From contig PDRY01000016.1 in assembly GCA_002748265.1 (NCBI GenBank), forward strand, positions 62,001 through 126,000: a stretch of 64,000 nucleotides of DNA. The letters run 5' to 3'. Of the stretch, positions 1-22,119 are shown piece by piece (position 1 is the stretch's first letter; every line of letters begins with the position of its first letter). The notes below the pieces were generated by a model. That model was not told the origin of the DNA. It ran no database searches and saw only the letters and a program-made list of their open reading frames with translations. The DNA comes from Rhodobacterales bacterium (GTDB lineage: Bacteria > Pseudomonadota > Alphaproteobacteria > Rhodobacterales > Rhodobacteraceae). Both the position numbers and the translations under genes were made by a program.

Positions 1-189
1 ATTGTGCCATTTCCAGGCGGGCCCACGATGGTCATAGGCGCTCACCTCTTCCATGCGGAACCGGGCGCATTGGCCGAATTCGGGCGGCAGGACGATGACG
101 GGGAAATCGGGATCCAGCGTGTGCGTGAGGTCCACGACCTTCACCGTGCCGCTGGCCAGAGCACCGGCCAGTTGGTTCAGGATACTCAT
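1..189 (-). CDS. Cyclase-family hydrolase, N-terminal part (cut by window edge)
   Basis: The first 63 codons of a gene that runs out of the window on the minus strand. The translation contains VVDLTHTLDPDFPV at residues 17-30 and SAYDHRGPAWKWHN near the edge, a pattern typical of the cyclase family (PF04199; bacterial kynurenine formamidase and related metal-dependent hydrolases). Its ATG overlaps the stop of the DUF35-SDR gene in an ATGA quartet (186-189), so it is probably the next cistron of the aromatic catabolic operon. A ring-hydrolysing or lactone/amide-hydrolysing step is a reasonable inference; the metal-binding His/Asp residues further on cannot be seen. Confidence 0.75.
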   Translation of the reverse strand, partial: MSILNQLAGALASGTVKVVDLTHTLDPDFPVIVLPPEFGQCARFRMEEVSAYDHRGPAWKWHN

Positions 190-1442
190 GCGCCGTCTCC
201 CCCGCCGGTCATTTCACGTTCAAGGATCTTCGGCCCGGCGCGGAACCGCTCGATCAGGTCCTTCGCCACATCGCCGCAATAGACGTCCTCCAGCCCATCG
301 CGGAGCCCTTTGACCACGTCCCGCGCGAGCGCGGCGGGCGGCACCTTTGGCGGCGGCAGTGGCTGATGCCAGTCGTCATCGGTGGGGCCGACAAAGACGT
401 TCATGACGCGCAGCCCGCTGCTTCGGAATTCGCCGCGCAGGGATTGGCTGAGCGACAGGGCCGCAGCGTTGGACGCCGAAAAGCAGCCATAGGCCGGATC
501 CGGTAGCAAGGCATGGGCCGACAGGATGTTGACCCAGGCCACCGCGGCGTTGGTCCCGTCCGCCGTGCGGGCGCACATGCCGGGGCCGAACGCCTGCGCC
601 AGCCGCATCAGGCCGAGATAGTTCACCTCCATCTCCTCGCGCGCGACCCCGCTGTCGCCGCGGCTCAGCGCGCCGCCGGGCCTGATGAGCCGAGCGTTAT
701 TGACCATGATGTCGGTCTTGCCGCCGATCTCGCCCGCAAGCTCCCGCACGCTGGCGGTGTCGGTCACATCGAGCGGCAGAACTTCGACGCCTGGAATGTC
801 CGCCAACGCGCCCTCGTTGGGATCTGGGCGCCAGGTTTCGGACAGGCCGACAAAGATCGTCGTCGCCCCGGCATCGGCAAGCCCCCGGGCGAGCGCGGGC
901 GCATTGGGATTGCGCCCGTCGGTGATCAGGACGCGGCGGAATTTGGGATCAGAGCTCATGGCGCGCAACTGGGGATCGTCCTCCATATGAGGGGTGGCGG
1001 TTTCGGGCATGGCCAGCAAAACGCCCTGGCCCGAGCGGTCGAGCCGGTTTTGCATCACCACGCGCCCGCGCGGCGGGACATCGCCATGCACATGGCAGAT
1101 CACCACCGGCCCGGCATCCAGCTTCACCGATCCGGTGCGCCAGGGCGCGCGTTCGCGAAAGTAGAGATTGGTCGAGATCCGCACCTTGGTCTCCGCCAGA
1201 AGCGTGCCGCCCGGAGCAATGTCCTGCCAGGGCAGGGCGACCGACAAGCACTGGCAACAGGCATCGCGCGGCGGGTATTGCACGGTGCCGCAATCGGCAC
1301 AGACCTGCAGCATGAACCGCCCCTCGGCGGCGGCGGCGGTCAACCCTAGGGCGGCGCGGCTGCGCAAGCTGGGCGGGCTGGTCGGGCTGAGCGTCCGGCG
1401 CTGCGGGTTCTTCTTGGACGGCGGGGTCAGAGGCGTCGTCAT
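186..1442 (-). CDS. DUF35 (zinc ribbon/OB-fold) fused to a degenerate short-chain dehydrogenase
   Basis: 418 aa with two domains. Residues about 44-147 form a rubredoxin-like zinc ribbon (Cys48, Cys51, Cys62/63, Cys65) followed by an OB-fold, the DUF35 architecture of proteins that partner thiolase-like enzymes. Residues about 168-418 look like a Rossmann-fold SDR: DVTD at about 225, VNNAR at 247-251, Asn274, NILSAH at 305-310 and Tyr318. Two hallmarks are missing. The glycine-rich TGxxxGxG turn reads TDGRNPNAP, and the catalytic YxxxK reads YGCFS, with Ser322 in place of Lys. The SDR half may therefore be structural or bind a different ligand. Start and stop both overlap neighbours by ATGA. 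I know DUF35 proteins mostly as stand-alone partners, so the fusion is unusual. A partner role for the preceding thiolase-like gene is inference. Confidence 0.8.
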   Translation of the reverse strand: MTTPLTPPSKKNPQRRTLSPTSPPSLRSRAALGLTAAAAEGRFMLQVCADCGTVQYPPRDACCQCLSVALPWQDIAPGGTLLAETKVRISTNLYFRERAPWRTGSVKLDAGPVVICHVHGDVPPRGRVVMQNRLDRSGQGVLLAMPETATPHMEDDPQLRAMSSDPKFRRVLITDGRNPNAPALARGLADAGATTIFVGLSETWRPDPNEGALADIPGVEVLPLDVTDTASVRELAGEIGGKTDIMVNNARLIRPGGALSRGDSGVAREEMEVNYLGLMRLAQAFGPGMCARTADGTNAAVAWVNILSAHALLPDPAYGCFSASNAAALSLSQSLRGEFRSSGLRVMNVFVGPTDDDWHQPLPPPKVPPAALARDVVKGLRDGLEDVYCGDVAKDLIERFRAGPKILEREMTGGGDGA

Positions 1443-2614
1443 GGCCCGTCTCCTTTCAGGATGGCGGCGCCGGAACAGACACCTCTGTCATAGTTGATCA
1501 TCCCAAATCCCGACACCATCGCGAGGGTCGCTCCGGCGACCTGAGTGGGACCGGCTTGGCCCGTGACCTGGCGGATCGCTTCGACCATGCCGATGAACCC
1601 GCCCGCCGCGCCCGCTTGCCCGGCGGAGAGCTGCCCGCCGGAGGTGTTATGCGGGAAGTCGCCCCCATTGGTCAGATCACGCGTGCGCAGGAATTGCGGC
1701 GCCTCTCCCTTGGCGCAGAACCCCAGGTCTTCGATCTGCATCATCGAGATGACGGGGTAATCGTCATAGGTCTGAAGCAGGTCGATATCCTCGGGCGTGC
1801 AGGCGGCCTGATCGTAGAGCTCGTCGATATCCAGGGTCCAGCCGCCGCGCAGTTGGATCGGGTCCTCCGCATGGGCGTTGTGACGCTCGATCGTGCCGCC
1901 AATGGTGGCATAGGGCAGGGCGCGGCGCTCGGCCTCTTCGACGGTCATCACCAGAAAGGCTTCGGACCCGGCGCAGGGCATGACGCAGTCAAACAGCGCA
2001 ATCGGGTCGGTGATGGGCCGCGCCTCCAGATACTGCTCCAACGTCAGCGGTTTGCGCATCAACGCGCCGGGATTTTGCATGGCATTGGCGCGCTGTGCCA
2101 CGCAGATGCGGCCGAAATCCTCGCGCGTGGCGCCGTATTCCTGCATGTAGCGATCGGTCAGCAGCGCGAAATTTGCGTTCGGCCCGCCCGAGCCATAGGG
2201 GTAGGACGCGTCCATCGCAAAGCGCGAGAAGCTGGAGAGCATCCGCCGGAAGCTGTCGATCTGGTTGGTGTCCCCCGCCACGCAGGCGACGATATCGGCA
2301 TCCCCCGCCTGCACCGCGCGGGCAGCCCGGCGCAGGGCCACAACGCCCGACGCGCCCCCCATCGGGATATGGTCCAGCCAACGCGGGCACAGGCCGAGAT
2401 GCTGGGTCAGCCCGACGGCGGTGTCCGGGAACAGGCTGAAACTGGCCACCGAGAACCCGTCCAGCTCACGCGGGGAGACCCCGGCGGCATCGAGCGAGGC
2501 CTTGAGCGCCCGCGCGATCCACCAATGCGCCGTCTGAATAGAGTAGCGCTCATAGGGCATGGACACGGGCGCGACGAGCGCGACCCCCTCGTAGGATTGG
2601 CGCGCGCGGGTCAT
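1439..2614 (-). CDS. Thiolase-like protein of the SCP-x/lipid-transfer family, without catalytic Cys
   Basis: 391 aa with a thiolase fold (SCP-x type). The nucleophile loop, which carries Cys in degradative thiolases, reads MGGASG (residues 85-90) with no cysteine. The later His motif GHPxGA is replaced by GQAGAAGG. The protein is therefore unlikely to be a classical thiolase. Cys-less SCP-x homologues paired with a DUF35 protein include the Ltp2/ChsH2 retro-aldolases that shorten steroid side chains as CoA thioesters, and the next gene here supplies a DUF35 domain. I infer aldol cleavage of a beta-hydroxyacyl-CoA, or another C-C cleavage. It overlaps the ligase gene upstream and the DUF35-SDR gene downstream by ATGA. 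Confidence 0.85.
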   Translation of the reverse strand: MTRARQSYEGVALVAPVSMPYERYSIQTAHWWIARALKASLDAAGVSPRELDGFSVASFSLFPDTAVGLTQHLGLCPRWLDHIPMGGASGVVALRRAARAVQAGDADIVACVAGDTNQIDSFRRMLSSFSRFAMDASYPYGSGGPNANFALLTDRYMQEYGATREDFGRICVAQRANAMQNPGALMRKPLTLEQYLEARPITDPIALFDCVMPCAGSEAFLVMTVEEAERRALPYATIGGTIERHNAHAEDPIQLRGGWTLDIDELYDQAACTPEDIDLLQTYDDYPVISMMQIEDLGFCAKGEAPQFLRTRDLTNGGDFPHNTSGGQLSAGQAGAAGGFIGMVEAIRQVTGQAGPTQVAGATLAMVSGFGMINYDRGVCSGAAILKGDGP

Positions 2615-4236
2615 GCCACCTGCCTTTTCTTCAGCCGCGTAACATCGACGGTCGCGGGATCGTCCAGCAGCCTCGCGGCCAGAGCCTTGAGCTCCGCCCG
2701 TTGGATCTTCTGGGTCGGTGTCAGCGGGAGGGCATCGACGAAGGCGATATAGCCGGGCACCTTGTAGTAGGCCATCTGGCTCAGCGCCCAGGTGACGATC
2801 TCTTCGGCCTTGCCCGGCTGCGGGTCGCGCACCTGCAGGCAGGCGAACACCTCATCGCCCCGGATCGCATCGGGCACCGGCGCCACGGCGGCGGCGGTCA
2901 CGTCGGGGTGGCGCATCAGGATCGATTCCACCTCGACCGCTGCGATATTCTCGCCCGAGCGGCGGATGACGTTCTTTTTGCGGTCCACGAAGAAGAAGAA
3001 CCCGTCATCGCCCTCGCGCACGATGTCGCCGGTGTGGAACCACCCGCCATCCCAGGCTTCTTCGGTTGCTTCGGCGTTCTTGTAATAGGCGCTGAAGAAC
3101 CCCAGCCGGGGCGCGTCGCCCTTGCGGCGCACCAGCAGCTCTCCGGGCTGGCCGGGGGCGACGGGGGTGCCGTCATCGTCCGTCAGCCGGATATCCAGCC
3201 AGTCGGGCGCACGGCCCAGGGCGGCCTGTCCGATCACGCGGTCTTCGGTATGGTTCGAGATCACCGCCCCGGCGCCGGTTTCGGTCATCGCCCAGGCCTC
3301 CATCAGTGGAAAGCCGAAGCGATCCTCAAAAGCGGCGTGCAGCTTGGGATCGACCCCGGCGCCAAAGCCGAAGCGGACCGAGTGATTGCGGTCCTCGGGC
3401 GATGGCTCGGCGCCCATCAGCATCGACGGCATCACGCCCAGATAATGCAGGCAGGTCGCGCGGCTGTCGCGCACGTCCTGCCACCAGCTCCGGGGGTGGA
3501 AGCGATCCACAGCCGTCAGGCACCCACCCAGAGAGATCATCGCCATGAAGGAATAGGCCATGGCGTTCATGTGAAAGATCGGCAGCGGCGTGATCATCCG
3601 CTCGCCCGCGTCGGTCAAAGACACGATCCCGCCGAGCGTGGAATACCAGCGGCCGACCTCCAGGAAATAGCTGTTGGCCAGCACGCAGCCTTTGGGGTTG
3701 CCGGTCGTCCCGGAGGTGTAGAGCACCGCGGTCTCGCGGTCGAAGGCCGCTGCGGCGGGCGCGGCGATTGCGGCGTTGACGCGCGGGGCGGGCAGAGAGT
3801 CTTCGACCGTGATGGCCCGTGCCTGAACACCTGCCGCATCCGCTGCGGCCTGCAGCTCTACGATACGGCTCGGTATGGAGACGATCAGCGCCGGTTCGGC
3901 GTGGCCGATAAGGTATTCCAGCTCTGCGGCGCGCAGGTCGGGGTTGATCGGCACGACCGAGGCCCCCAGGCGGTTCAGCGCCAGCCAGATCAGGAAAAAA
4001 TCGGGCCGGTTTTCAAGCAGAAGAGCCACACGCATCCCGGCGCCGTAGCCCGCTGCGGTCAGCGCATCCGCCCACTGCGTCACCCGCGCGGCGGCTTGGG
4101 CGTAGGTGATCTCCCCCGCCGTGATCCCGTAAATCTGCGCCGTACCGGGCAGTATGTTGAGCATGGGCCGGTCGCCAAACTGTGCACAGGCGGCGGTAAA
4201 GACGTCGCTGACAGACTGAGTGCGATCCGTAATCAT
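2611..4236 (-). CDS. Acyl-CoA ligase (AMP-forming, ANL superfamily)
   Basis: 541 aa. The P-loop motif YTSGTTGNPKG is at about residue 175 and the adenylate-binding motif AMTETGAG is in the middle. The hinge region holds FHTGDIVREGDDGFFFFVDR, and the C-terminal lid contains TPTQKIQRAEL with the catalytic lysine. The enzyme would activate a carboxylic acid to its CoA thioester with ATP. It sits between the dioxygenase beta subunit and the thiolase-like gene, both joined by ATGA overlaps, so its substrate is probably the product of the dioxygenase or the imported acid. Whether that is an aromatic, arylpropanoid or alicyclic acid cannot be decided here. Confidence 0.93.
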   Translation of the reverse strand: MITDRTQSVSDVFTAACAQFGDRPMLNILPGTAQIYGITAGEITYAQAAARVTQWADALTAAGYGAGMRVALLLENRPDFFLIWLALNRLGASVVPINPDLRAAELEYLIGHAEPALIVSIPSRIVELQAAADAAGVQARAITVEDSLPAPRVNAAIAAPAAAAFDRETAVLYTSGTTGNPKGCVLANSYFLEVGRWYSTLGGIVSLTDAGERMITPLPIFHMNAMAYSFMAMISLGGCLTAVDRFHPRSWWQDVRDSRATCLHYLGVMPSMLMGAEPSPEDRNHSVRFGFGAGVDPKLHAAFEDRFGFPLMEAWAMTETGAGAVISNHTEDRVIGQAALGRAPDWLDIRLTDDDGTPVAPGQPGELLVRRKGDAPRLGFFSAYYKNAEATEEAWDGGWFHTGDIVREGDDGFFFFVDRKKNVIRRSGENIAAVEVESILMRHPDVTAAAVAPVPDAIRGDEVFACLQVRDPQPGKAEEIVTWALSQMAYYKVPGYIAFVDALPLTPTQKIQRAELKALAARLLDDPATVDVTRLKKRQVA

Positions 4237-4712
4237 GGCAGCAACTGGATATTGCCGAAGGCGGCGTCACTGTTGAGCAGATCGACACGCTTGTTCGCGA
4301 TGCGCAGCTTGCCGTCCACCTCTTTCAGCTCGTGCGTCGCGGTCAGGGCCAGAAGGAACTGATCGTCCAGCCGGGTTTCCACGTAGTGCATCGAAGTGTT
4401 TGTTTCGAACACGCCCGCAACGGGGTCGAACTTGTCGATGAAGGGCCGCTGGATCACATGGCTGCACCGGCTTTTCGGCTTCTGGCTGAAGGTGCGTTCT
4501 CCGTTGAGCCGCTCCACCCGGAGCCTGCGCATGAAGTCGTCTTCATAGAGCAAGGATGTGCAGGTCAGCGGATCGCTTTGCTTGTAATCGAGCGGCATCC
4601 AGTAATGCCCCTCGGGCAGCCACAGATCGAGCCATTCGGAAAACCGGCCTTCGTCCAGCATCCGCACCTCTTCGTAGAGGAAGTCGATGATATCGTCGCG
4701 TGTCACGCTCAT
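4233..4712 (-). CDS. Aromatic-ring-hydroxylating dioxygenase, beta (small) subunit
   Basis: 159 aa, the usual size of the alpha/beta-barrel small subunit that structurally supports the Rieske alpha subunit in alpha3beta3 oxygenases. The N-terminus (IIDFLYEEVRMLDEGRFSEW) and the central WMPLDY region are typical of the family. I chose the ATG at 4712, which overlaps the alpha-subunit stop (ATGA, 4709-4712) and follows an AGGAGG Shine-Dalgarno 8 nt upstream. The longer open frame to 4868 lies inside the alpha gene. It is translationally coupled to alpha and to the ligase gene downstream. Confidence 0.92.
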   Translation of the reverse strand: MSVTRDDIIDFLYEEVRMLDEGRFSEWLDLWLPEGHYWMPLDYKQSDPLTCTSLLYEDDFMRRLRVERLNGERTFSQKPKSRCSHVIQRPFIDKFDPVAGVFETNTSMHYVETRLDDQFLLALTATHELKEVDGKLRIANKRVDLLNSDAAFGNIQLLP

Positions 4713-6055
4713 TGTGCGGCCTCCTGTGCGTCCTGGGTCATGGACATCGTGATGAACCGTTTCCAGGCGTCGAACTGATTGCGCATCTGGCGCTCGGTGG
4801 TGCCGTTCTCCACGGCCTCGTCGCTGTAGTCTTCTTCGCCGTGCCAGAGCCGCTGGATATTGATCCATTCCAGCCCGTCGGAATGCAGCCCCTCCTGCGC
4901 GCGCTCGTACATTTCCAGATCGTCATGGCCGACCATCGAGGTGGGCGCATTGATCAGCCGGTTATACATCACGGTCCGCTCAAGCAGGTAATCGGGCGCG
5001 CCGACGAGTCGGTAGATGTAGCTTTCCACCAGGGTCCGGTCAGGGCCGAGCGGGATGAAGTTGCGCAGCTGTTGCACCGGGCCCTTGATCATGATGTTGG
5101 GGAAATAGACCGTGTTGTGCCGGTTCTCGCCCAGGATCTCAGAGGCGCGCTCGCGGCCATGGGCGGCGACCATCGCGTCCCAGTAATCCGGCGACTGGCT
5201 GTAATCCGAATGGATCGAATGATGCACGCCGGTATGGCCGTGACCGTTGGGCCAGGTGCGGATGCCCATTTCCTCGAAGAACTCATAGGGGCTCATGAAG
5301 GGGGCGATGATCTCCATCGCCATGGGTTTGGGTTTGTCCGCGGGCCAGTTTGCCTCCTCGAACAGCTTCACCGCGGTGCCCGCCGAGCTTTCATGGGCCA
5401 CCATTGGGTGGCAGGTGTCGGTCTGGTTGTCGACCAGCATTTTCCAGTTGCAGTTGTGCACATAGCGCAGGGGCGGTCCGGCGACCTCCAGCCGCCCTTC
5501 GGGGGCGCGGTCGACCATATTGTCGAAGGAGCTGAGCGCGCCGCCAAAGAAGTCGTCGAACCCGATGCCGTCCTTTGCGAGCCGCGCAAAGACAAAGCCC
5601 CGGTAGTTCGTCACATCGCCCACGGGTTCGAGCCCGCGATTGGCTTCGCTCTCGTCAAAGCCGGTGTCGGCGTAGCCCTTCTTGAGCGGAATGGCGAGAA
5701 GGCAGCCATTCGTCTTGAAGCTCCAGGCGTGGTAGGGGCAGCGAAAGAACTTGCCCGTATTGCCCGCCCGGTCGATGGCGATCTTGGTGCCTTTATGCGG
5801 ACAGCGGTTGTGCAGGACATAGACCTCTCCATCGGAGTGCCGCACCATGATCACGGGCTGGTCGCCGATCTGGGTGGTGATGTAATCGCCCTTGGTTGGC
5901 ACCTGACTGTCATGCCCCACGAAAACCCACGTGTTGGCAAAGAGATGCTTCATCTCCAGATCGTAGATTTCCTGGTCGATATAGGTGTCGCGGTGGACCT
6001 GATGCTGCTGCACCAGGGCGGCAACGGCAGCCGGATTGTCCTTATATTTCCCCAT
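4709..6055 (-). CDS. Aromatic-ring-hydroxylating dioxygenase, alpha subunit (Rieske/non-haem iron)
   Basis: 448 aa catalytic subunit. The Rieske [2Fe-2S] ligands are Cys85-x-His87 and Cys106-x2-His109 (NRCPHKG and CPYHAW). The mononuclear iron site is visible as DTCHPMVAH, giving the bridging Asp213 and the ligands His216 and His221. It should insert both atoms of O2 into an aromatic ring with electrons from the reductase encoded just upstream. The ATG at 6055 follows GGAGG with correct spacing; an upstream in-frame Met would fall inside the reductase gene. The gap to the reductase stop is 10 nt. The family covers benzoate, cumate, phenylpropionate and similar substrates, and nothing here fixes which one. 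Confidence 0.95.
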   Translation of the reverse strand: MGKYKDNPAAVAALVQQHQVHRDTYIDQEIYDLEMKHLFANTWVFVGHDSQVPTKGDYITTQIGDQPVIMVRHSDGEVYVLHNRCPHKGTKIAIDRAGNTGKFFRCPYHAWSFKTNGCLLAIPLKKGYADTGFDESEANRGLEPVGDVTNYRGFVFARLAKDGIGFDDFFGGALSSFDNMVDRAPEGRLEVAGPPLRYVHNCNWKMLVDNQTDTCHPMVAHESSAGTAVKLFEEANWPADKPKPMAMEIIAPFMSPYEFFEEMGIRTWPNGHGHTGVHHSIHSDYSQSPDYWDAMVAAHGRERASEILGENRHNTVYFPNIMIKGPVQQLRNFIPLGPDRTLVESYIYRLVGAPDYLLERTVMYNRLINAPTSMVGHDDLEMYERAQEGLHSDGLEWINIQRLWHGEEDYSDEAVENGTTERQMRNQFDAWKRFITMSMTQDAQEAAQ

Positions 6056-6065
6056 GATCTCCTCC

Positions 6066-7007
6066 CTAGATATCCAGAACCAGCCGCGCCGATTTGGCCC
6101 GGCTGACACAGATCTGCATGATCTTTCCCGAAGCCCGCTCGGACTCGCTCAGCACCACGTCGCGGTGATCGGGGGTGCCGCTGATGACGTCGGTCTGGCA
6201 GATCCCGCAATCCCCGCGCGCGCAGTCAAACATCACGTCGACACCGGCCTCCTCCAGCACTTCGACGATGGTCTTGTCGGCGGGAATGGTGAACACGCGC
6301 CCGTCGCCGATCTCCACCTCGAAGGGCTGATCGCCCTCGTGGGTGGGGGGCGATGAGAACAGCTCGAAATGCACGTGGTCCTTGTCAAAGCCCGCAGCTT
6401 CGGCCTTTTCGCGCACCGCTTCGATCATCCCCTTGGGGCCGCAGCAATAGAGATGCGTGCCGGGGGCCGCGCCCGCGATCAGGGCGTCCAGCTCGATCAT
6501 CGCGGTATCGTCGAACCAGAGCGTGAGGGCCTCCCCGAACCTCTCCTCCAGCGGCGCGCGAAACGCGCACAGATCGGCGCTGCGCGTGGCGTAGTGAAAC
6601 GCAAACGGCGTACCCCGCGCCTTCAGAGCGGTGGCGAATGAGATGATCGGAGTCACCCCGATCCCGCCTGCGATCAGCAGGGCCGGGGCCGAGCCTTGGT
6701 GAAGGTGAAAATCGTCCTTCGGATCGGATGCGGTGATCGTGTCGCCATCGTTCAGGGCGTGCATCGCGCGGGACCCACCGGTGCCATCGTCTTCGCGTTG
6801 GACGGCCAGGTGATAGGTGTCCGGTGCATCGCCCTGAGGGTCGAGGTCAACCAGCGAATAGGACCGCGTACCCAGATCGCCCAGGTCGATATCCACATGG
6901 GCGCCGGGCGTATAGGCGGGCAGGGCGCCGCCATCGGCATTGACCAGCGTGAACAGGCTGATCCGATCGGTCACCGGCGTGATTGTCTGGACCTTCAATT
7001 GGGTCAT
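6066..7007 (-). CDS. Phthalate-dioxygenase-reductase-type electron transfer protein (flavin, NAD, C-terminal 2Fe-2S)
   Basis: 313 aa. The order is a flavin-binding barrel (RSYSL at 48-52), an NAD(P)-binding domain (LIAGGIGVTPIISF at 111-124 and YCCGPKGM at 187-194), then a plant-type ferredoxin domain with Cys262, Cys267, Cys270 and Cys300. This is the class IA arrangement of phthalate dioxygenase and vanillate demethylase reductases, which pass electrons from NADH to a Rieske oxygenase. It is the first cistron of the oxygenase operon, which has a long leader and a promoter/operator at 7218-7262. No separate ferredoxin gene is present, as expected because the ferredoxin is fused. Confidence 0.94.
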   Translation of the reverse strand: MTQLKVQTITPVTDRISLFTLVNADGGALPAYTPGAHVDIDLGDLGTRSYSLVDLDPQGDAPDTYHLAVQREDDGTGGSRAMHALNDGDTITASDPKDDFHLHQGSAPALLIAGGIGVTPIISFATALKARGTPFAFHYATRSADLCAFRAPLEERFGEALTLWFDDTAMIELDALIAGAAPGTHLYCCGPKGMIEAVREKAEAAGFDKDHVHFELFSSPPTHEGDQPFEVEIGDGRVFTIPADKTIVEVLEEAGVDVMFDCARGDCGICQTDVISGTPDHRDVVLSESERASGKIMQICVSRAKSARLVLDI

Positions 7008-7274: not shown

Positions 7275-7760
7275 CTAGATCGGGTTTTTTCGGATGTTTT
7301 CCAGCATCTTCGCCATGGTGCGCAGCAGCACCGCGCGGTCCTCTGCAGGGATGCCGCGCATCATGCGCTCATTTTGTTCGGCCATGACGGGCCAGATGTC
7401 GGTGCAGAGCGCCGACCCGGCGGGGCTTAGCCGCACGATGCGGGTGCGACTGTCTTCGCTTCCGGCCTGCCGCGTCACGAGCCCCTCGGCCTCCATCTTG
7501 TCAAGCGCGCGGCTCATAGTGGGCTGCTCGGCCACGGCGTAGACGCACAGATCGTTCACCGACAGCTCCTTGAACACGGCCAGCGAAACCAGAACCCGCG
7601 TCGCGACCGTGGTCAGCCCCGACGCCTTGAGCGCATCGCGCATGTTCTTGTTGTAGCGATGCGAGACCCGGATCAGCAGGTAGGACGGGATCTCGGTTAG
7701 CGACTTCACGGGCGGGGTCTTGGCGTTGGTGTCGGTCATCTCAAGCATGGCTGATGTCAC
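7275..7760 (-). CDS. MarR-family transcriptional regulator
   Basis: 161 aa with a winged helix-turn-helix of MarR type: LTTVATRVLVSLAVF, then SVNDLCVYAVAEQPTMSRALDKMEAEGLV as the recognition-helix region, then a wing with RTRIVRLSPAG. These proteins are usually repressors released by aromatic acids or their CoA esters. The GTG at 7760 overlaps the dctM stop as GTGA, so the gene may be translated from the TRAP operon mRNA; ATG codons at 7748 and 7739 are alternative starts. The matching inverted repeats at 7218 and 10687 flank it, and I infer that it controls both the importer (and so itself) and the oxygenase operon. Confidence 0.9.
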   Translation of the reverse strand: MTSAMLEMTDTNAKTPPVKSLTEIPSYLLIRVSHRYNKNMRDALKASGLTTVATRVLVSLAVFKELSVNDLCVYAVAEQPTMSRALDKMEAEGLVTRQAGSEDSRTRIVRLSPAGSALCTDIWPVMAEQNERMMRGIPAEDRAVLLRTMAKMLENIRKNPI

Positions 7761-9070
7761 ATATTCGAGGGCAGGAACAGCACAAGCGACGGTATCAGCA
7801 GCAGCAGGACCAAACGTAGCAGGTCCATGACCCAGAACGGGGTCACACCGCGGAAGATCGTGCCGGTCGACACATCGCCCACCACCCCTTTCAGGATGAA
7901 GACGTTAAGTCCCACAGGCGGTGTGATCAGGCTGATTTCGGTCACGACAACGACGATGATGCCGAACCAGACCGGATCGAACCCCATGCCGGTGACCAGT
8001 GGAAAGAAGATCGGCACCGTCAGCAGCAGCATCGAGAGCGATTCAAACACGCAGCCCAGGGCGATGTAGATCAGGATGATCACGCCCATCACCAGCCACG
8101 GGTAGAGATCGTAGCTCTCCACGAAGCTCCGCAGTCCTTCGGGCAGCCCCGCGTAGTTGACGAAGTTCGAAAACACCCAGGCTCCGATCAGCACCGCAAA
8201 CAGGGATGCGGTGGTCATCGCCGTCTCCGCCAGCACCTCCATCGTGTCGCGCAGGCTCAGGCGGCCACGGCTCAGCGCGATCAGGAAGGCGCCCATTGCG
8301 CCCATGCCAGCGGCCTCGGTCGGAGAGAAGGTCAGGTGCAGCGGCCAGAAATCGAGCGCGCCGTAGAGACCTCCGATGACGAGGAAGAACAGCAGGAGCA
8401 CCGCCCAGACGCCCTTCAGCGCAGCGATCCGCGCGGGCCAGTCGCTGCGCGGCCCGGCGGGGCCGGATTCAGGGCGGCGCATGACCGAATAGCGCACGGC
8501 CAGCAGGTAGAAGAGGATGCCCAGCGTTCCGGGGATGATCCCCGCGATGAAGAGCTTTCCGATCGAGGTTTCGGTGAGCAGCCCATAGATCACCAGGATC
8601 ACCGAGGGCGGGATCAGGATCCCCAGCGTGCCGCCCGCCGCGATGGAGGCCGTCGACAGTCGGTCGTCATAGCCGTAGCGACGCATCTCGGGCATGGCGA
8701 CCTTGGACATGGTGGCCGCCGTGGCCAGGGACGAGCCTGAGATCGCAGCGAAGCCACCGCAGGCCACGATAGTCGCCATCGCCAGACCGCCTTTGAAGTG
8801 ACCGAGAAAGGCGTTCGAGGCGGCGTAAAGCTCACGGCTGATGCCGCCCTTGTTCACGAACAACCCCATGAGGATGAAGAGCGGCACGACCGACAGGCCG
8901 TAATCCTGGCTGGTGTCGATGATCAGCCGCGCCACCATCGAGATGGCGCCGCGAAAGCTGGTCTCCAGCATGTAGCCGATCATGCCCACGAACCCCATCG
9001 CGAAGGCGATAGGCACCCTCAGCAAGACGAGCGCGAGGACGGCGGCGAACCCAATGGCGCCTTCAATCAT
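7757..9070 (-). CDS. dctM: TRAP transporter large permease (DctM)
   Basis: 437 aa, highly hydrophobic, with the DctM signatures GLFVNKGGISRELYAASNAF and GGTLGILIPPSVILVIYG and a C-terminal ITPPVGLNVFILKG. It is the sodium-driven transport subunit. I chose the ATG at 9070, preceded by GGAG, rather than the earlier in-frame start. It overlaps the dctQ stop. The neighbouring oxygenase operon suggests that the cargo is the carboxylic acid degraded by those enzymes. Confidence 0.93.
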   Translation of the reverse strand: MIEGAIGFAAVLALVLLRVPIAFAMGFVGMIGYMLETSFRGAISMVARLIIDTSQDYGLSVVPLFILMGLFVNKGGISRELYAASNAFLGHFKGGLAMATIVACGGFAAISGSSLATAATMSKVAMPEMRRYGYDDRLSTASIAAGGTLGILIPPSVILVIYGLLTETSIGKLFIAGIIPGTLGILFYLLAVRYSVMRRPESGPAGPRSDWPARIAALKGVWAVLLLFFLVIGGLYGALDFWPLHLTFSPTEAAGMGAMGAFLIALSRGRLSLRDTMEVLAETAMTTASLFAVLIGAWVFSNFVNYAGLPEGLRSFVESYDLYPWLVMGVIILIYIALGCVFESLSMLLLTVPIFFPLVTGMGFDPVWFGIIVVVVTEISLITPPVGLNVFILKGVVGDVSTGTIFRGVTPFWVMDLLRLVLLLLIPSLVLFLPSNM

Positions 9071-9581
9071 GAGTTTTCTCCAGCTCGTGCGGCGCAATGA
9101 TGAGCATCACGGCCCGCCATAGAAGGGCCAGTGCGGTCACCATGGTCATCAGCGCGACAAACCATTCCACGTAATGCACCGGCAACTTCAGGTATTCCAT
9201 TCGGTCGCCATAGGACTTGCTGCGCTGCGCCAGATCGTAGACCCGCAGGGCGGGCCAGATCAGGATCCCACCGCAGAAAACCGATACGGCGATGTCCACA
9301 AGGCGGCTGATCCGCAAGCGCGCAAAGATACCGTCCAGAAGGTCAACGCTGATCTGGTTGCCCTGATGCGACAGCAGCGGCATGGCCGAAAAGACGGTGA
9401 TGGCCATCAGCAGGCGTGTCAGGTCGGCGGCGAATTGGATCGGCGCGTTGAGGGTCGAACGCAGCATGACATCGGCGAATGTCAGCAGCATCAGCAGCAA
9501 GAGTGCACCCGAGGCCAAAGCAATGGGCAGGCGGTGCGCCAGCCATCCCGCCCAGGCGGGGAATGAGCGTGCCGTTGTCAT
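9063..9581 (-). CDS. dctQ: TRAP transporter small permease (DctQ)
   Basis: 172 aa with four predicted membrane segments, typical of the DctQ subunit that partners DctM. The ATG at 9581 has a GGAG site 9 nt upstream. It lies between the binding protein and DctM; the 3' end overlaps the dctM start by 8 nt. A hairpin separates it from dctP. Confidence 0.9.
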   Translation of the reverse strand: MTTARSFPAWAGWLAHRLPIALASGALLLLMLLTFADVMLRSTLNAPIQFAADLTRLLMAITVFSAMPLLSHQGNQISVDLLDGIFARLRISRLVDIAVSVFCGGILIWPALRVYDLAQRSKSYGDRMEYLKLPVHYVEWFVALMTMVTALALLWRAVMLIIAPHELEKTHD

Positions 9582-9601
9582 GAAAGGGGCTCCGTTGAGT
9601 T

Positions 9602-9627
9602 CGGCGGGCACGGGAAAGCGCCCGCCG
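9602..9627 (-). promoter_or_regulatory. Intercistronic hairpin between dctP and dctQ
   Basis: Arms CGGCGGGC (9602-9609) and GCCCGCCG (9620-9627) form an 8-bp GC stem with a 10-nt loop and no U-tract. Such hairpins downstream of binding-protein genes commonly protect the upstream message and so give more binding protein than permease. Confidence 0.45.
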
Positions 9628-9638
9628 GGATTGGCGCG

Positions 9639-10655
9639 TCAGTTGGCGGCCATGTCCGTTTTGACCATCTCATAGGCGGCGTTGGCGTCGATGCCAGCAG
9701 CGTCCAGCTCTGCCAGAACCTTGTCGATCACCCGCTGCGCAATGGCGGCGAACTTGGCCTGGTCTTCGTCCGAGGCCGGGATGACCGCATTGTCGGCAGC
9801 CGCTTTGGTCGCGTCATAGCCGATCTGGTCCGACAGGTCCCACGCGGCGCCTGCCATCCGGCTGGCCGGTTCGCCAAACACCTGTTCGTTCAGGGCTGCC
9901 TGGACGTCCTCGGGCAGGCTGTCGAACTTTTCCTGGCTCATGATGATGGCGAAGGATCCGCGATAGAGCCCGCCCGGCATGTCATAGATGTTCCGGGCCA
10001 CCTCGGTCAGTTTGAAGCCGACCCGTTCGCCCACATTCATCGCCACGGCATCCGCCGCACCCGAGGCGAGCGTCTCATAGACCTTCGGCGCCGGGACGTT
10101 GATCCCGATCAGGCCCAGCTCGGCGCCGACATCGCCTGCGACGCCGCCACCGATCCGGGTCTTCAGGCCGCTGAGATCGTCAAGCGTTTCGACATCGGCA
10201 TTGGTCATCATCTGGCCGGGGCCATGCGTCATCAGCGCCACAAGCTTGACGCCGCGATGCTCATCCAGTTGCTGGAGATACGCTTCATGCACGCGCCAAT
10301 AGGCGACGGCGGAGGCCTCCGAGGAGCCCTCATAGCCCGGAAGTTCCGCCAGCTTCGTGCCGACGAACCGGCCCGGCTGGTATCCGTGGAAGATGATCGC
10401 CATGTCAGCGGCGCCGTCCATGACCAGATCCATCTGAGCGGGCGGCGGTGCCAGGCCGAATTTCAGCTCACCGGTAACCTCCCCACCGGTGGCGTCTTCC
10501 ATCATTTCCACGAGGCCCGCGAAAATCTCCGTGTTGATCCCGTGAGTGGGCGGCAACCAGGTCGAAATGTTGAGCTTGGTTTCGGCCATTGCCGCGCCGC
10601 CAAGTGTCATCAGCGACAAGGCCGATGCCGAGACGAGTTTGGTGAAGTGAAACAT
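9639..10655 (-). CDS. dctP: TRAP transporter periplasmic solute-binding protein (DctP family)
   Basis: 338 aa with a clear signal peptide (MFHFTKLVSASALSLMTLGG followed by AAMA and then the mature start ETKLNI). The body has the DctP-type fold: WLPPTHGINTEIFAGL near the N-terminus, LKTRIGGGVAGDVGAELG in the middle (the conserved Arg that binds the ligand carboxylate lies in this motif), and a C-terminal helical tail. I chose the ATG at 10655 because it follows GGGGAGG and begins the signal peptide; the longer frame reaches into the operator. It is the first gene of the import operon. The operator at 10687-10702 lies 32 nt upstream. Confidence 0.93.
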   Translation of the reverse strand: MFHFTKLVSASALSLMTLGGAAMAETKLNISTWLPPTHGINTEIFAGLVEMMEDATGGEVTGELKFGLAPPPAQMDLVMDGAADMAIIFHGYQPGRFVGTKLAELPGYEGSSEASAVAYWRVHEAYLQQLDEHRGVKLVALMTHGPGQMMTNADVETLDDLSGLKTRIGGGVAGDVGAELGLIGINVPAPKVYETLASGAADAVAMNVGERVGFKLTEVARNIYDMPGGLYRGSFAIIMSQEKFDSLPEDVQAALNEQVFGEPASRMAGAAWDLSDQIGYDATKAAADNAVIPASDEDQAKFAAIAQRVIDKVLAELDAAGIDANAAYEMVKTDMAAN

Positions 10656-10686
10656 GAACGTCCTCCCCTGTTCAGGTCTCCGTTCA

Positions 10687-10702
10687 ATATGAAAAATCAT
10701 AT
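10687..10702. promoter_or_regulatory. Operator candidate 2, 16-bp inverted repeat before dctP
   Basis: ATATGA, a 4-nt spacer, TCATAT: the same arms and spacing as the repeat at 7218-7233, and likewise directly downstream of a weak -10-like sequence (TACTTT on the minus strand). The flanking base also matches (T before the arm when read on the minus strand). Confidence 0.7.
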
Positions 10703-18775: not shown

Positions 18776-20371
18776 ATGACGAAAGATGGAACCACGATCA
18801 TCGTGGGCGCGGGGCTGGCTGGCCTGACCGCGGCGCTTGAGCTGCTCGACACCGGCGAGCGGATCGTGCTGGTGGATCGCGACAGCCCCGAGGCCGTGGG
18901 CGGTTTGGCGCGGCTCAGCTTTGGCGGGCTGTTCTTTGCGAACACGCCGCTTCAGGCGCGCCACAAAATCACCGACAGCGCGGACGCCGCTTTTGCCGAT
19001 TGGTGCCGCTTCGGAGAGCTCACCGAAGGCGCCGAGGACGCGCTGCCCCGAGCCTGGGCGCAGGCCTATTGCGCGGATAGCGCGGGGCTCTACCACTGGC
19101 TGACCGGGCTGGGGCAGAAGTTCATGCCCGTCCCGCTGTGGGTCGAGCGGGACGGCAACACCGTTCCCCGCTGGCATGTCTGCTGGGGCACCGGGGACGG
19201 GTTGGTGCGCACGATCCTGCGGGCGCTTGAAGCTCATCCCGGCCGTGATCGCCTGACCATCCGGTATGGTATCCGGGTCGATGGACTGAGCACCTCGGGC
19301 GGCGCCGTCACCGGCATCACCGGAGAGGACGAGGCGACCGGCACGCCCGTCGCACTTGATGCGGCGCGGGTCGTGATCGCCACCGGCGGGATCAATGGCG
19401 TGGATGCTCTGATCCGCGAACACTGGCACAAGGATTGGCAGCCCGCACCGCCAGTGATCCTGACCGGCGCGCATCAGTATGGCGATGGCACGATGCACCG
19501 CGCGGCGGCGGGGGCCGGGGCGCAGGTGCACCGGCTCGACCGCAACTGGAACTACGCGGGCGGGATCCATCACTGGAACCCGACCAAGCCGAACCATGGG
19601 CTCTCTACTGTGCCCGCGCGCTCGGCGCTGTGGGTGAACGGGCAGGGCGCCCGTATCATGCCCCCGATGGTGAGCGGTTTTGACACCCGCGATCTGTTCA
19701 CGCAGCTGTGCCGTCAGCCTGCGGGCTATGGCTGGCAGGTGATGAACCGCAAGATCGCGCTCAAGGAACTGGCTGTGTCGGGCGCGGAAATGAACCCGGC
19801 GGTGCGCGATCACAAGATGCTGAGCTTTGCCGCGCAGATCCTGTTCGGCAACCGCTGGCTGTATGACACGCTCACGCAGAACTGCGTGGATGTGGTGGTG
19901 GCGGACGATCTGCCGTCGCTGGTGAACAAGATGAACGCGCTGTCGGTCGGGGGCGTTGAGATGCGCGAAGACACGCTGCGCGCCGCGCTTTCCGCTTGGG
20001 ATGCGGAGATCGCGAAGGGGAATGGCTCGAGCGATCCGCAGATGCAGGCGCTTACCACGCTGCGCCAGTGGAAGGCCGACAAGCTGCGCCTCACGCGCGG
20101 GGTGAAGGTGCTTGACCCGAAAGCGGGGCCCTTGGTGGCCATCCGCACCTTCCCCATCGCGCGCAAATCGCTGGGCGGGATCGTCACCGATCTGGCCAGC
20201 CGGGTTCTTACCCCGCAGGGCGACGCGATCCCCGGCCTCTATGCCGTTGGGGAGGCAGCGGGATTTGGCGGCGGCAATATGAACGGGATCCGCGGGCTTG
20301 AAGGCACCTTCCTGGGCGGCGCGCTTTACACCGCGCGGCGGCTGGGCGCCGCGGCAAGGGAGGGCGCGTGA
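18776..20371 (+). CDS. FAD-dependent oxidoreductase of the fumarate reductase/KstD superfamily
   Basis: 531 aa. The FAD dinucleotide-binding motif VGAGLAGLTAALELLD is at residues 9-24. The C-terminal FAD-binding segment contains GLYAVGEAAGFGGGNMNG. It resembles the predicted FAD-binding dehydrogenases (COG3573 type), whose substrates are not known. The RBS GGGAGAGG precedes the ATG. Its stop overlaps the start of the next gene (GTGATG), so it forms an operon with the ThDP enzyme and the aldehyde dehydrogenase. It may desaturate or oxidise a substrate for the downstream decarboxylation. Confidence 0.88.
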   Translation: MTKDGTTIIVGAGLAGLTAALELLDTGERIVLVDRDSPEAVGGLARLSFGGLFFANTPLQARHKITDSADAAFADWCRFGELTEGAEDALPRAWAQAYCADSAGLYHWLTGLGQKFMPVPLWVERDGNTVPRWHVCWGTGDGLVRTILRALEAHPGRDRLTIRYGIRVDGLSTSGGAVTGITGEDEATGTPVALDAARVVIATGGINGVDALIREHWHKDWQPAPPVILTGAHQYGDGTMHRAAAGAGAQVHRLDRNWNYAGGIHHWNPTKPNHGLSTVPARSALWVNGQGARIMPPMVSGFDTRDLFTQLCRQPAGYGWQVMNRKIALKELAVSGAEMNPAVRDHKMLSFAAQILFGNRWLYDTLTQNCVDVVVADDLPSLVNKMNALSVGGVEMREDTLRAALSAWDAEIAKGNGSSDPQMQALTTLRQWKADKLRLTRGVKVLDPKAGPLVAIRTFPIARKSLGGIVTDLASRVLTPQGDAIPGLYAVGEAAGFGGGNMNGIRGLEGTFLGGALYTARRLGAAAREGA

Positions 20372-22119
20372 TGCCAAAACGGAAGACAGCGGCGCAGGTC
20401 GCGCTGCAAACGCTGACAGAGCTGGGCATTCGCCAGACTTTCGGCATCCCCGGTGTGCACAATACCGAACTCTACGACACGTTTGCGCGCTCCAACCAGC
20501 TTCGCCCGATACTGGTCACCCATGAGGGCGGCGGCGCCTTCATGGCGGATGGTGTCTCGCGCGCCTCCGACAGCGGAGAGGTCGGCTGCCTGCTCACCGT
20601 GCCCGCTGCCGGGTTCACCCACGCCATGAGCGGGATCGGAGAGGCGTTCCTCGATGGCATCCCGATGCTGGTCATCACCGGTGGGATCCGCACGGACACG
20701 CCCTGGCAGCACAAGCTGCACCAGGTCGACCAGATGGAGCTGGCGAAGGGCATCACCAAGGCCGCGTTCCGCGTTGACAAGGTGGAGGACGTCGCGCCGA
20801 TCCTGCGCGAGGCGCACCGGATCGCGACCAGCGGCCAGCCCGGTCCGGTCTTGGTCGAAATCCCCACGAACCTTCAGCTCTTTGATGATGCGGTCGAAGA
20901 GCCCGCGCCGTGGACCGCGCCGCCGGTGCCTCCATTGCCCGATCCGGGGCTGATGGAAGAGGCCGCGCAGTTGCTGGCCCAGGCCAAGCATCCGGTGATC
21001 TTTGTCGGCTGGGGCGCGCGCCGCGCGGTGACGGATGTGATCGCCCTAGCGGAACACCTTCAGGCGCCGGTCTTCACGACGCTTCAGGGGCTGGCGAGCT
21101 TTCCGGCGTCGCATCCGCTCCATGCTTGCTTCGGGCTGGGCGCGGCGGCCGTGCCCGCCGGGCGCAACGCCTATGAAGGGTGCGATGCGCTGTTGACCAT
21201 CGGCGCCCGGTTCGGAGAGATCCCGACCGGCAGTTTCTCGGCCAAGGTACCCCCGGCCCATGTCCATATCGACATTGACCCCTCCGCCATCGGGCTGAAC
21301 TACCCCGCCAAGGTCGGGCTGGTCGGCGACGCCACCGCTGTCGCCCCCGCGCTGCTGGAGGCACTGCGCAAGGCCGCGCCGCCCGCGCCGGAGCGGAGCG
21401 ATTTGCAGGCGCAGATCGCGAAGGACAAGGCGGCCTATCGTGCGGCGTGGCACGCCCATGAGCCGCCCGCAGGCCGGATCAACCCCATCACCGTCTTCGA
21501 CGCCCTGCGCGCGGCCTACCCGCAGGAGGCCACCATGGTGCTCGATGACGGCAACCACACCTTCCTGGCGGCAGAGCTGTTCCCGGTCGGCGCGGGGGGC
21601 AAGGTGCTGACCCCGACCGATTTCAACGCCATGGGATACGCGGTGCCCGCCGCGATCGGCGCGCGGCTGGCTGATCCCCAGCGTGAGCTGTTCGCCGTTG
21701 TCGGGGATGGCTGCTTCACCATGACGGGGATGGAGCTGCTGACCGCCACCCATAACGGGGTCGGGCTCGCGGTTTTCGTGTTCAACGACGGCACGCTCAG
21801 CCAGATCGCGCAGGCGCAGCGCAAACCCTACGGGGCGGAGACCTGCACCCACCTCCCACGTGCGGATTTCGGCGGGCTCGCGCGGGCGGTCGGGGCGCGC
21901 TACATCGTGCTCACCGATCCGGCCAAGACCAGCGACACCGTCACCGCTGCACGCGATCTCGCGCGGGCGGGCAAGGTGGTCGTGGTCGATGTGGCCATCG
22001 ACTATTCGCGCCCGACCCATTTCACGACCTCGGTCTTCAAGGCCAATTTTTCGTCCTTCCCGCTGCGCCAGAAGGCGCGGCTGGCCTCCCGCAGCCTCAG
22101 CCGAAAGTTTCGCCGATGA
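20371..22119 (+). CDS. Thiamine-diphosphate-dependent enzyme (acetolactate synthase/2-oxoacid decarboxylase family)
   Basis: 582 aa with the three-domain ThDP-enzyme layout. The catalytic glutamate that activates the cofactor is Glu52 in THEGGGAFMADG. The middle domain binds a nucleotide-like cofactor, and the C-terminal ThDP/Mg motif runs from GDGCFTMTGMELL to VFVFNDG. The N-terminal FGIPGVHNTELYD resembles AruI-type 2-oxoacid decarboxylases more than true acetolactate synthases, and no small regulatory subunit is present. I chose the ATG at 20371, after GGGAGGG; GTG at 20368 is the alternative. An aldehyde product would feed the next gene. Confidence 0.87.
   Translation: MPKRKTAAQVALQTLTELGIRQTFGIPGVHNTELYDTFARSNQLRPILVTHEGGGAFMADGVSRASDSGEVGCLLTVPAAGFTHAMSGIGEAFLDGIPMLVITGGIRTDTPWQHKLHQVDQMELAKGITKAAFRVDKVEDVAPILREAHRIATSGQPGPVLVEIPTNLQLFDDAVEEPAPWTAPPVPPLPDPGLMEEAAQLLAQAKHPVIFVGWGARRAVTDVIALAEHLQAPVFTTLQGLASFPASHPLHACFGLGAAAVPAGRNAYEGCDALLTIGARFGEIPTGSFSAKVPPAHVHIDIDPSAIGLNYPAKVGLVGDATAVAPALLEALRKAAPPAPERSDLQAQIAKDKAAYRAAWHAHEPPAGRINPITVFDALRAAYPQEATMVLDDGNHTFLAAELFPVGAGGKVLTPTDFNAMGYAVPAAIGARLADPQRELFAVVGDGCFTMTGMELLTATHNGVGLAVFVFNDGTLSQIAQAQRKPYGAETCTHLPRADFGGLARAVGARYIVLTDPAKTSDTVTAARDLARAGKVVVVDVAIDYSRPTHFTTSVFKANFSSFPLRQKARLASRSLSRKFRR

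Follow-up and report, generated by a model that had tools for sequence, protein, structure and literature searches.

Side-chain aldolases and the iad operon

Bacterial removal of the auxin indole-3-acetic acid (IAA) shapes root growth. In Variovorax, the iad operon converts IAA to anthranilate, the formation of which falls when any one of iadCDE, F, G, H, I and J is deleted (PMC12633357). The subject of this report is the gene pair iadG and iadH of this auxin-degradation operon, iadCDEFGHIJ, as it occurs in a 64,000-nucleotide stretch of the genome of a Rhodobacterales bacterium (assembly GCA_002748265.1, contig PDRY01000016.1, positions 62,001 to 126,000; hereafter, the window). With a probability that we put at roughly 0.8, IadG and the DUF35 half of IadH form a retro-aldolase that would convert the CoA thioester of dioxindole-3-acetic acid (DOAA-CoA) to isatin and acetyl-CoA, and the short-chain dehydrogenase/reductase (SDR) half of IadH would be a structural pseudoenzyme. 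The two genes, the open reading frames and Pfam domains of which agree with the first-pass annotation of a DUF35-SDR fusion paired with a Cys-less thiolase, are as follows.

186-1442, minus strand: iadH, 418 aa, a fusion of DUF35 (zinc ribbon and OB fold) with an SDR-fold domain (open reading frame, Pfam)
1439-2614, minus strand: iadG, 391 aa, a thiolase-fold protein without the Cys, predicted to be a retro-aldolase (open reading frame, Pfam match Thiolase_C_1, alignments)

The two genes overlap by 4 bp (ATGA). Their counterparts in Variovorax paradoxus CL014, recognized by operon order and IadD identity, differ in the published labels: the roles of IadF, G, H and I were inferred by the authors from annotation, which yielded the labels 'ketothiolase' for IadG and 'alcohol dehydrogenase' for IadH (preprint PMC12633357). 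Deletion of either iadG or iadH lowers anthranilate; a compound of the formula C10H9NO4 (DOAA), to the production of which IadJ has been assigned, piles up in the iadF, G, H or I deletions of V. paradoxus, and the pathway has been transferred into other root bacteria (PMC12633357). The parts of PMC12633357 covered here contain no biochemical test of IadG or IadH, and in the covered parts of PMC10374108, the two appear as cloned constructs only. No retro-aldolase proposal for the iad side-chain step was found in the literature surveyed, to which few subscription journals belonged.

To our knowledge, no DUF35-associated retro-aldolase acting on an indole-derived substrate has been described before. 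TcLtp2-ChsH2(DUF35) (6ok1), a steroid C3 side-chain aldolase that we take to release propionyl-CoA, resembles the IadG-IadH pair in the Tyr of the YD motif (Tyr294), the DUF35 partner and the cleavage of a tertiary beta-hydroxyacyl-CoA, predicted for IadG; it differs in having His as the third motif residue and a second catalytic Tyr, Tyr344, where IadG has Gln. In ChsH2, DUF35 is joined to a non-catalytic enzyme fold (MaoC), an organization like that proposed for IadH (PMC11321319). The top solved relatives of IadG and of the DUF35 half come from CtSal-CtShy(DUF35), the bile acid side-chain aldolase (9myr), which splits a beta-hydroxyacyl-CoA into acetyl-CoA and a carbonyl compound, as predicted for IadG; its catalytic residues are Tyr302 and Cys304, those of TcLtp2 being Tyr294 and Tyr344 (PMC12329534).

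The active site of IadG

The best PDB relatives of IadG are 9myr_A (173 bits), 4u4e (164), 6ok1_A, that is, TcLtp2 (144), and then 7yvy (124), the motifs of which, CASG and HD, we read as those of a true thiolase. Judged by residue numbering, 9myr is CtSal-CtShy(DUF35): the hand-counted positions of 9myr_A fit Tyr302, Cys304, Gln347 and Gln352 of CtSal at a constant offset of 24. Alignment places three stretches of IadG against these residues.

2345-2365, minus strand: PMGGASG, IadG residues 84-90; Gly87 is in the column of the thiolase nucleophile Cys
1757-1768, minus strand: YDDY, IadG residues 283-286; Tyr283 aligns with the catalytic base, Tyr302 of CtSal or Tyr294 of TcLtp2
1613-1639, minus strand: IadG residues 326-334; Gln328 and Gln333 are in the columns of CtSal Gln347 and Gln352

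The motifs on which the first-pass annotation relied in the thiolase-like protein, MGGASG (residues 85-90) and GQAGA (332-336), are present. In 102 collected rows, reduced to 92 distinct IadG sequences with that of the window included, the nucleophile column is Gly in all 92, and Tyr283, Asp285, Gln328 and Gln333 are each conserved in 92 of 92. A thiolase of EC 2.3.1.16 has a nucleophilic Cys and a catalytic His; IadG has Gly87 and Gln333 in these columns. What IadG and CtSal have in common are the catalytic Tyr, both Gln residues and the lack of a nucleophilic Cys; the features by which sequence identifies the Ltp2/Sal kind in general, namely no nucleophilic Cys, the Tyr of YDxx (Tyr283) and a zinc-ribbon DUF35 partner, are all found in the pair. 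IadG is nevertheless neither a Sal proper (YDCY clade, with Cys in the third position) nor an Ltp2 proper (YDHF clade, with His in that position and Tyr344), because Asp285 occupies the column of Cys304 of CtSal and His296 of TcLtp2 in 92 of 92 sequences, and Gln that of Tyr344. The tyrosines anticipated from Ltp2 are thus present in part: Tyr283 is kept, and the column of the second one contains Gln, as in Sal.

Among the matches listed from 150 Pseudomonadota genomes searched, 28 other SCP2-thiolase-like loci (L139-L166, the remainder of 30 listed matches, near copies included) contain no YDDY; two have YDCY and two YDHF, and the nucleophile column is Cys in one of the 28 (L160). The IadG rows of a quick 34-row tree form one clade (SH-aLRT 100), which groups with the two YDCY rows (96). 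The genome of the window encodes no second copy of IadG at E 1e-5. IadG thus appears to be a clade of its own, distinct from Sal and Ltp2, and very likely works as they do; the proposal of the first-pass annotation, that this is an Ltp2/Sal-like protein and most likely a retro-aldolase with a DUF35 partner, gains support from the sequence comparisons.

The two halves of IadH

The fusion is composed of the following parts.

1242-1337, minus strand: zf-ChsH2 zinc ribbon, IadH residues 36-67 (Pfam), with Cys48, 51, 62 and 65
1068-1229, minus strand: OB_ChsH2_C fold, IadH residues 72-125 (Pfam)
363-902, minus strand: SDR (adh_short) domain, IadH residues 181-360, apparently degenerate in its catalytic residues (Pfam, alignments)
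897-923, minus strand: lost SDR cofactor loop TDGRNPNAP, IadH residues 174-182, where active SDRs have TGxxxGxG (alignments)
468-482, minus strand: lost SDR YxxxK, Phe321...Asn325 (FSASN; alignments)

All 53 aligned fusion sequences, that of the window among them, contain the zinc ribbon and the adh_short domain, and 52 contain the OB domain, which rules out a frameshift or an assembly artefact as the origin of the fusion. The four zinc-ribbon Cys residues are invariant in all 53. The best PDB relatives of IadH residues 1-160 are, with weak E-values, 9myr_B (2.2e-4) and 6ok1_B (4.1e-4), that is, the DUF35 partner chains of the best relatives of IadG itself. In contrast to CtSal-CtShy, the zinc ribbon of IadH is of the C4 rather than the C3H1 type, and the fused fold is an SDR rather than a MaoC hydratase. 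The sole PF01796 match of the window's genome (88% complete) lies in IadH.

The dehydrogenase half appears to have lost its own activity. Alignment with IadJ, the second SDR of the operon, which retains TGGSKGIG and YSASK, and with two solved SDRs fixes the register and puts Phe321 in the Tyr column and Asn325 in the Lys column. The first-pass annotation had correctly reported TDGRNPNAP and the loss of the catalytic Lys (Asn325); the segment to which it assigned this loss, YGCFS, lies outside the YxxxK register, in which CFSASN aligns with YSASK, and the Tyr (Phe321) is lost as well. The adh_short domain that defines classical SDRs is therefore present in the window's IadH; the glycine loop and YxxxK are not. 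A collection of 105 rows, window included, was reduced to 95 distinct sequences, 94 besides the window, of which 2 are gapped at the glycine motif. In the column of the first Gly of TGxxxGxG, 88 of these 94 homologues have Asp and 4 have Asn, the other 2 being gapped; the complete three-glycine motif occurs in none of the 92 readable ones. The Tyr column contains Tyr in 15 of 94 sequences, the Lys column Lys in 12 and both together in 3; the column of Ser308 is Ser in 84. Because the losses are common to the homologues, they are not a sequencing accident, and the degeneracy of the SDR half, which had been proposed for the window alone, is borne out by both the glycine loop and the Tyr/Lys columns.

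In a quick tree of 93 of the 95 rows (two, of 330 aa or shorter, were omitted), parsimony requires 36 changes across 26 Tyr/Lys state classes, with a minimum of 25, suggesting that the dyad drifted repeatedly. Decay of the SDR half as a whole is rejected: in 19 of 20 chosen pairs (simple Nei-Gojobori estimates; one pair was saturated, and two more had dS above 1), dN/dS is 0.02-0.19 for the SDR half, a sign of purifying selection, and 0.04-0.20 for the DUF35 half. The best PDB match of the SDR half is 5u4s (E 2.1e-23), a putative short chain dehydrogenase that likewise lacks the Tyr of YxxxK (Leu in the alignment) and has a PPPK stretch in common with IadH; it differs from IadH in being a 245-residue SDR chain without DUF35 and in keeping the Lys. 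The Tyr may therefore have been lost before the fusion.

Operon, product and distribution

The genes run in the order C-D-E-F-G-H in the window, the edge of which lies just past the fusion gene iadH; I and J (a cyclase-family hydrolase and an SDR) follow just below, on the same contig and in the same direction. The other operon genes in the window are listed here.

2611-4236, minus strand: iadF, AMP-forming acyl-CoA ligase, predicted to form a CoA thioester (Pfam; operon position as in the covered part of PMC12633357)
4233-4712, minus strand: iadE, beta subunit of the Rieske oxygenase (open reading frame to 4868; start placed at 4712 by eye)
4709-6109, minus strand: iadD, alpha subunit of the Rieske oxygenase (judged by eye, translation probably starts at 6055)
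6066-7007, minus strand: iadC, flavin/2Fe-2S oxygenase reductase (profile matches)

The IadD of the window matches 9o71 with E 1.8e-171, and 7yls/8h2t with 2.5e-169; 9O71 is the IadDE complex of V. paradoxus CL014 (PMC12633357). A genome with an IadD 89% identical to 9o71 (over 102 residues) has the order C-D-E-F-G-H-I-J unchanged, as have Ruegeria pomeroyi DSS-3, Sulfitobacter indolifex DSM 14862 and Roseibium aggregatum ZYF703, in which three strains G, H and I are annotated merely as thiolase family, SDR family and cyclase family protein. The IadD match and the identical operon order identify the pair of the window as iadG and iadH. Assignment to an anaerobic iaa-type or an iac-type locus is rejected on the grounds that IadD, the gene order and IadI fit iad, rather than by comparison with iac or iaa sequences.

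The next enzyme of the operon points to the product. IadI matches isatin hydrolase A with E 1.3e-158. The gene that directly follows iadH in R. aggregatum IAM 12614 encodes a protein identical in 257 of 257 residues to crystallised isatin hydrolase A, 5nnb. Labrenzia aggregata, the source given for that structure, is presumably the older name of Roseibium aggregatum. Isatin hydrolase A (5nna/5nnb; PMC6117287) is thus the same protein as the IadI of this strain and represents the next pathway step, not the pair; the HTGTHFDAPCH of IadI matches the isatin hydrolase metal motif, HxG[T/A]HxDxPxH (PMC6117287). A role of IadI as kynurenine formamidase is rejected given this affiliation. DOAA and isatin differ by the elements of acetic acid. 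The iad pathway, which the first-pass annotation had missed, supplies both the substrate and the product for the IadG/IadH pair.

The fusion, described as new in the first-pass annotation, is neither new nor rare: one scan yielded 54 relatives, 52 of them matched over nearly the full fusion, and 35 plasmid records match it, 34 of these covering at least 80% of the query. It is common in databases yet undescribed as far as we have seen, and the pair itself is the known iadG/iadH; the possibility that the architecture might be widespread and already characterised holds for the first part, whereas characterization, as far as seen, is by gene deletion only. With 4 to 6 candidates scored per genome, IadH relatives (E <=1e-30) were found in 8 of 398 Pseudomonadota genomes and in 27 of 295 genomes of the window's family (own genome included in both counts; one of the 27 over the SDR half only), and in 13 of 399 genomes of the Bordetella order, one of these matched over the SDR half only.

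In 94 loci with distinct IadH, iadG adjoins iadH wherever this could be tested (90 of 90), with the 4-base overlap in 71 of 82 testable loci (69 ATG, 1 GTG, 1 CTG). Among testable loci, iadI is adjacent in 89 of 92, iadF in 58 of 69 and iadJ in 38 of 68; iadD lies no more than 9 kb away, in either direction, in 45 of 69. The 24 loci where iadD is not near, and several that lack both iadCDE and iadJ, suggest another possibility, namely, that the pair acts on a different beta-hydroxyacyl-CoA, derived, for example, from a ring-substituted or non-indole acid, its place in iad being secondary. Ten genomes with the pair present and iadD not adjacent or divergent were chosen for a search at E 1e-40: five contain no IadD relative, in favour of this possibility, and five do, one of them distant (42% identity). 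Given the five with a relative, and given that the adjacency of iadI implies a product that is still isatin-like, we regard a different principal substrate as highly improbable.

In the Rhizobium/Neorhizobium loci L043, L045-L052 and L054, F, G, H and I are kept, with no C, D, E or J nearby; in L048, F and G are separated by an OsmC-like gene (6389-6826). At E 1e-40, no IadD relative was found in the genome of L048 or in that of L045.

Proposed cleavage and alternatives

In the pathway that we propose, IadCDE and IadJ would convert IAA to DOAA, as reported for Variovorax, and IadF would join DOAA to CoA. The hydroxyl group of DOAA-CoA is tertiary (its carbon has no H), so that no beta-keto thioester can form and the compound is not a thiolase substrate; the same argument has been made for the second round of steroid side-chain degradation (PMC11321319). 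Retro-aldol cleavage fits the substrate, the product, the active site and the partner. IadG, held by the DUF35 half of IadH, would split DOAA-CoA in this way: Tyr283 would abstract the proton of the C3 hydroxyl, the C-C bond would break to yield isatin, and the acetyl-CoA enolate would take up a proton, probably from Asp285, close to Gln328 and Gln333. IadI would then open isatin to isatinate, pulling the reversible step, with anthranilate next. The SDR half of IadH would be kept to dimerise, stabilise or tether the complex. Compared with CtSal, the predicted substrate is an oxindole, and Asp285 replaces the catalytic Cys304.

If true, this scheme would give the side-chain step a mechanism, with isatin as the direct product, and would fit the DOAA build-up shared by the iadG and iadH deletions, in which loss of iadH resembles loss of iadG. 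This kind of aldolase would then extend from steroids to indoles, and IadH would clearly exemplify an SDR pseudoenzyme that has been kept next to its enzyme partner. Going further, we tentatively consider, as possible but rather doubtful, that IadGH is a new clade of DUF35-associated retro-aldolases in which Tyr-Asp replaces Tyr-Cys or Tyr-Tyr, and that the pseudoenzyme, with freely drifting catalytic residues, is a platform coupling IadG to IadI and so driving cleavage forward; the missing C-C cleavage of the iad auxin pathway would then be directly testable.

Several observations weigh against the retro-aldolase assignment, in addition to the five chosen genomes without an IadD relative. Replacement of Cys304 of CtSal by Ala, Ser or His abolishes activity (PMC12329534), so that Asp285 must work differently. 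DUF35 is apparently not important for the activity of Ltp2 (PMC11321319), which makes the first-pass statement that such aldolases need this partner too strong; deletion of iadH may thus act through complex stability or through the SDR half. Deletion of iadI, too, accumulates DOAA (PMC12633357), so that accumulation of DOAA is not specific to loss of G or H; a reversible aldol reaction would be one reason for such backing up, which fits a reversible step and does not prove it. When iadI is absent, C8H7NO2 (isatin + 2 H) accumulates, from which it has been concluded that IadF, G and H remove the side chain reductively (PMC12633357). As a true intermediate, this compound would call for a reductase, for which IadH is the candidate in print; the retro-aldolase assignment requires that isatin be reduced by other enzymes or, in Variovorax, by IadH. 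Finally, the IadHs of L118, L122 and L126, near the Variovorax-like branch, keep both Tyr and Lys, their glycine loop having Asp and being incomplete, and that of the Variovorax-like L120 keeps the Lys, has Phe in place of the Tyr and lacks a complete glycine loop; it is a relative of the IadH of V. paradoxus CL014, not that protein itself.

Taken at their word, the published labels would have IadG act as a ketothiolase and IadH as an active alcohol dehydrogenase, which together with IadF would remove the side chain reductively to yield C8H7NO2, the formula of dioxindole, with IadI as a broad amidase. Consistent with this, C8H7NO2 also accumulates in a strain expressing iadCDEFGH_JK2 (PMC12633357), an earlier paper reports dioxindole in cultures, and 3 of 94 IadHs keep Tyr and Lys. 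The active sites contradict the labels: the thiolase Cys and His columns are Gly and Gln in 92 of 92 IadGs, the Tyr-Lys combination is missing in 91 of 94 IadHs, and none of the readable ones has a full glycine motif; further, a tertiary alcohol yields no beta-keto acid, and IadI groups with isatin hydrolase A. On balance, we consider this reaction very unlikely.

Closer to our proposal is a combination in which IadG and DUF35 carry out the retro-aldol step and, in some lineages such as the Variovorax-like one, the SDR half retains a poor or specialised isatin reductase activity that yields dioxindole as a side product. The Tyr and Lys kept by the three relatives near L120, the C8H7NO2 found in Variovorax and the purifying selection on the SDR half are compatible with such a function; the Asp in the glycine loop of the same three, the Phe of L120 and the 36 changes in the Tyr/Lys columns of the quick tree speak against it, and we judge it unlikely. 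Reduction of isatin by other enzymes appears to be a more likely source of C8H7NO2 than a reductase role of IadH in Variovorax, because L120 combines Phe at the Tyr column with an incomplete glycine loop. Given the Lys of L120 and its three Tyr- and Lys-containing relatives, a partial reductase role in the Variovorax-like branch is conceivable.

Other genes around the operon

TRAP transporter genes and a MarR-like regulator (7275-10700, minus strand) lead into iadC and are possibly an IAA uptake system and IadR. The TRAP solute-binding gene was recognized by profile match, the open reading frame 7757-9097 as a TRAP permease by eye only. The latter overlaps the regulator gene by 4 bp (7757-7760), and a sigma-70-like site lies at 7262-7235.

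7275-7760, minus strand: MarR-like regulator upstream of iadC, possible iadR (best NCBIfam match HpaR, 49.5 bits, under the cut-off of 121.2)

Farther along the window, head-to-tail overlapping genes at 18776-23570 (plus strand) encode an FAD-dependent dehydrogenase, a TPP enzyme (20368-22119) and an aldehyde dehydrogenase (22116-23570), the best NCBIfam match of the latter being the benzaldehyde dehydrogenase MdlD (321 bits, cut-off 550). This set might convert isatinate to 2-aminobenzaldehyde and anthranilate. The pair of TPP enzyme and aldehyde dehydrogenase is absent at E 1e-30 from 77 other sequences searched, one of which is the window's own flank, apart from weak aldehyde dehydrogenase matches (28%) in three and a weak TPP enzyme match (26%) in one.

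The contig also contains, roughly 19 kb below the window, a DUF6537 gene (G000:C27:42730-43356), indolepyruvate oxidoreductase-like and a hallmark of iadB; iadB-like genes were found in 23 of 78 sequences searched, the query's own included. Just below the window, near iad (L002, 5348-7568), a lumazine synthase (RibH) gene stands beside two genes with family matches under the cut-offs, one for a flavin monooxygenase of luciferase-like type and one for a RutF-like flavin reductase.

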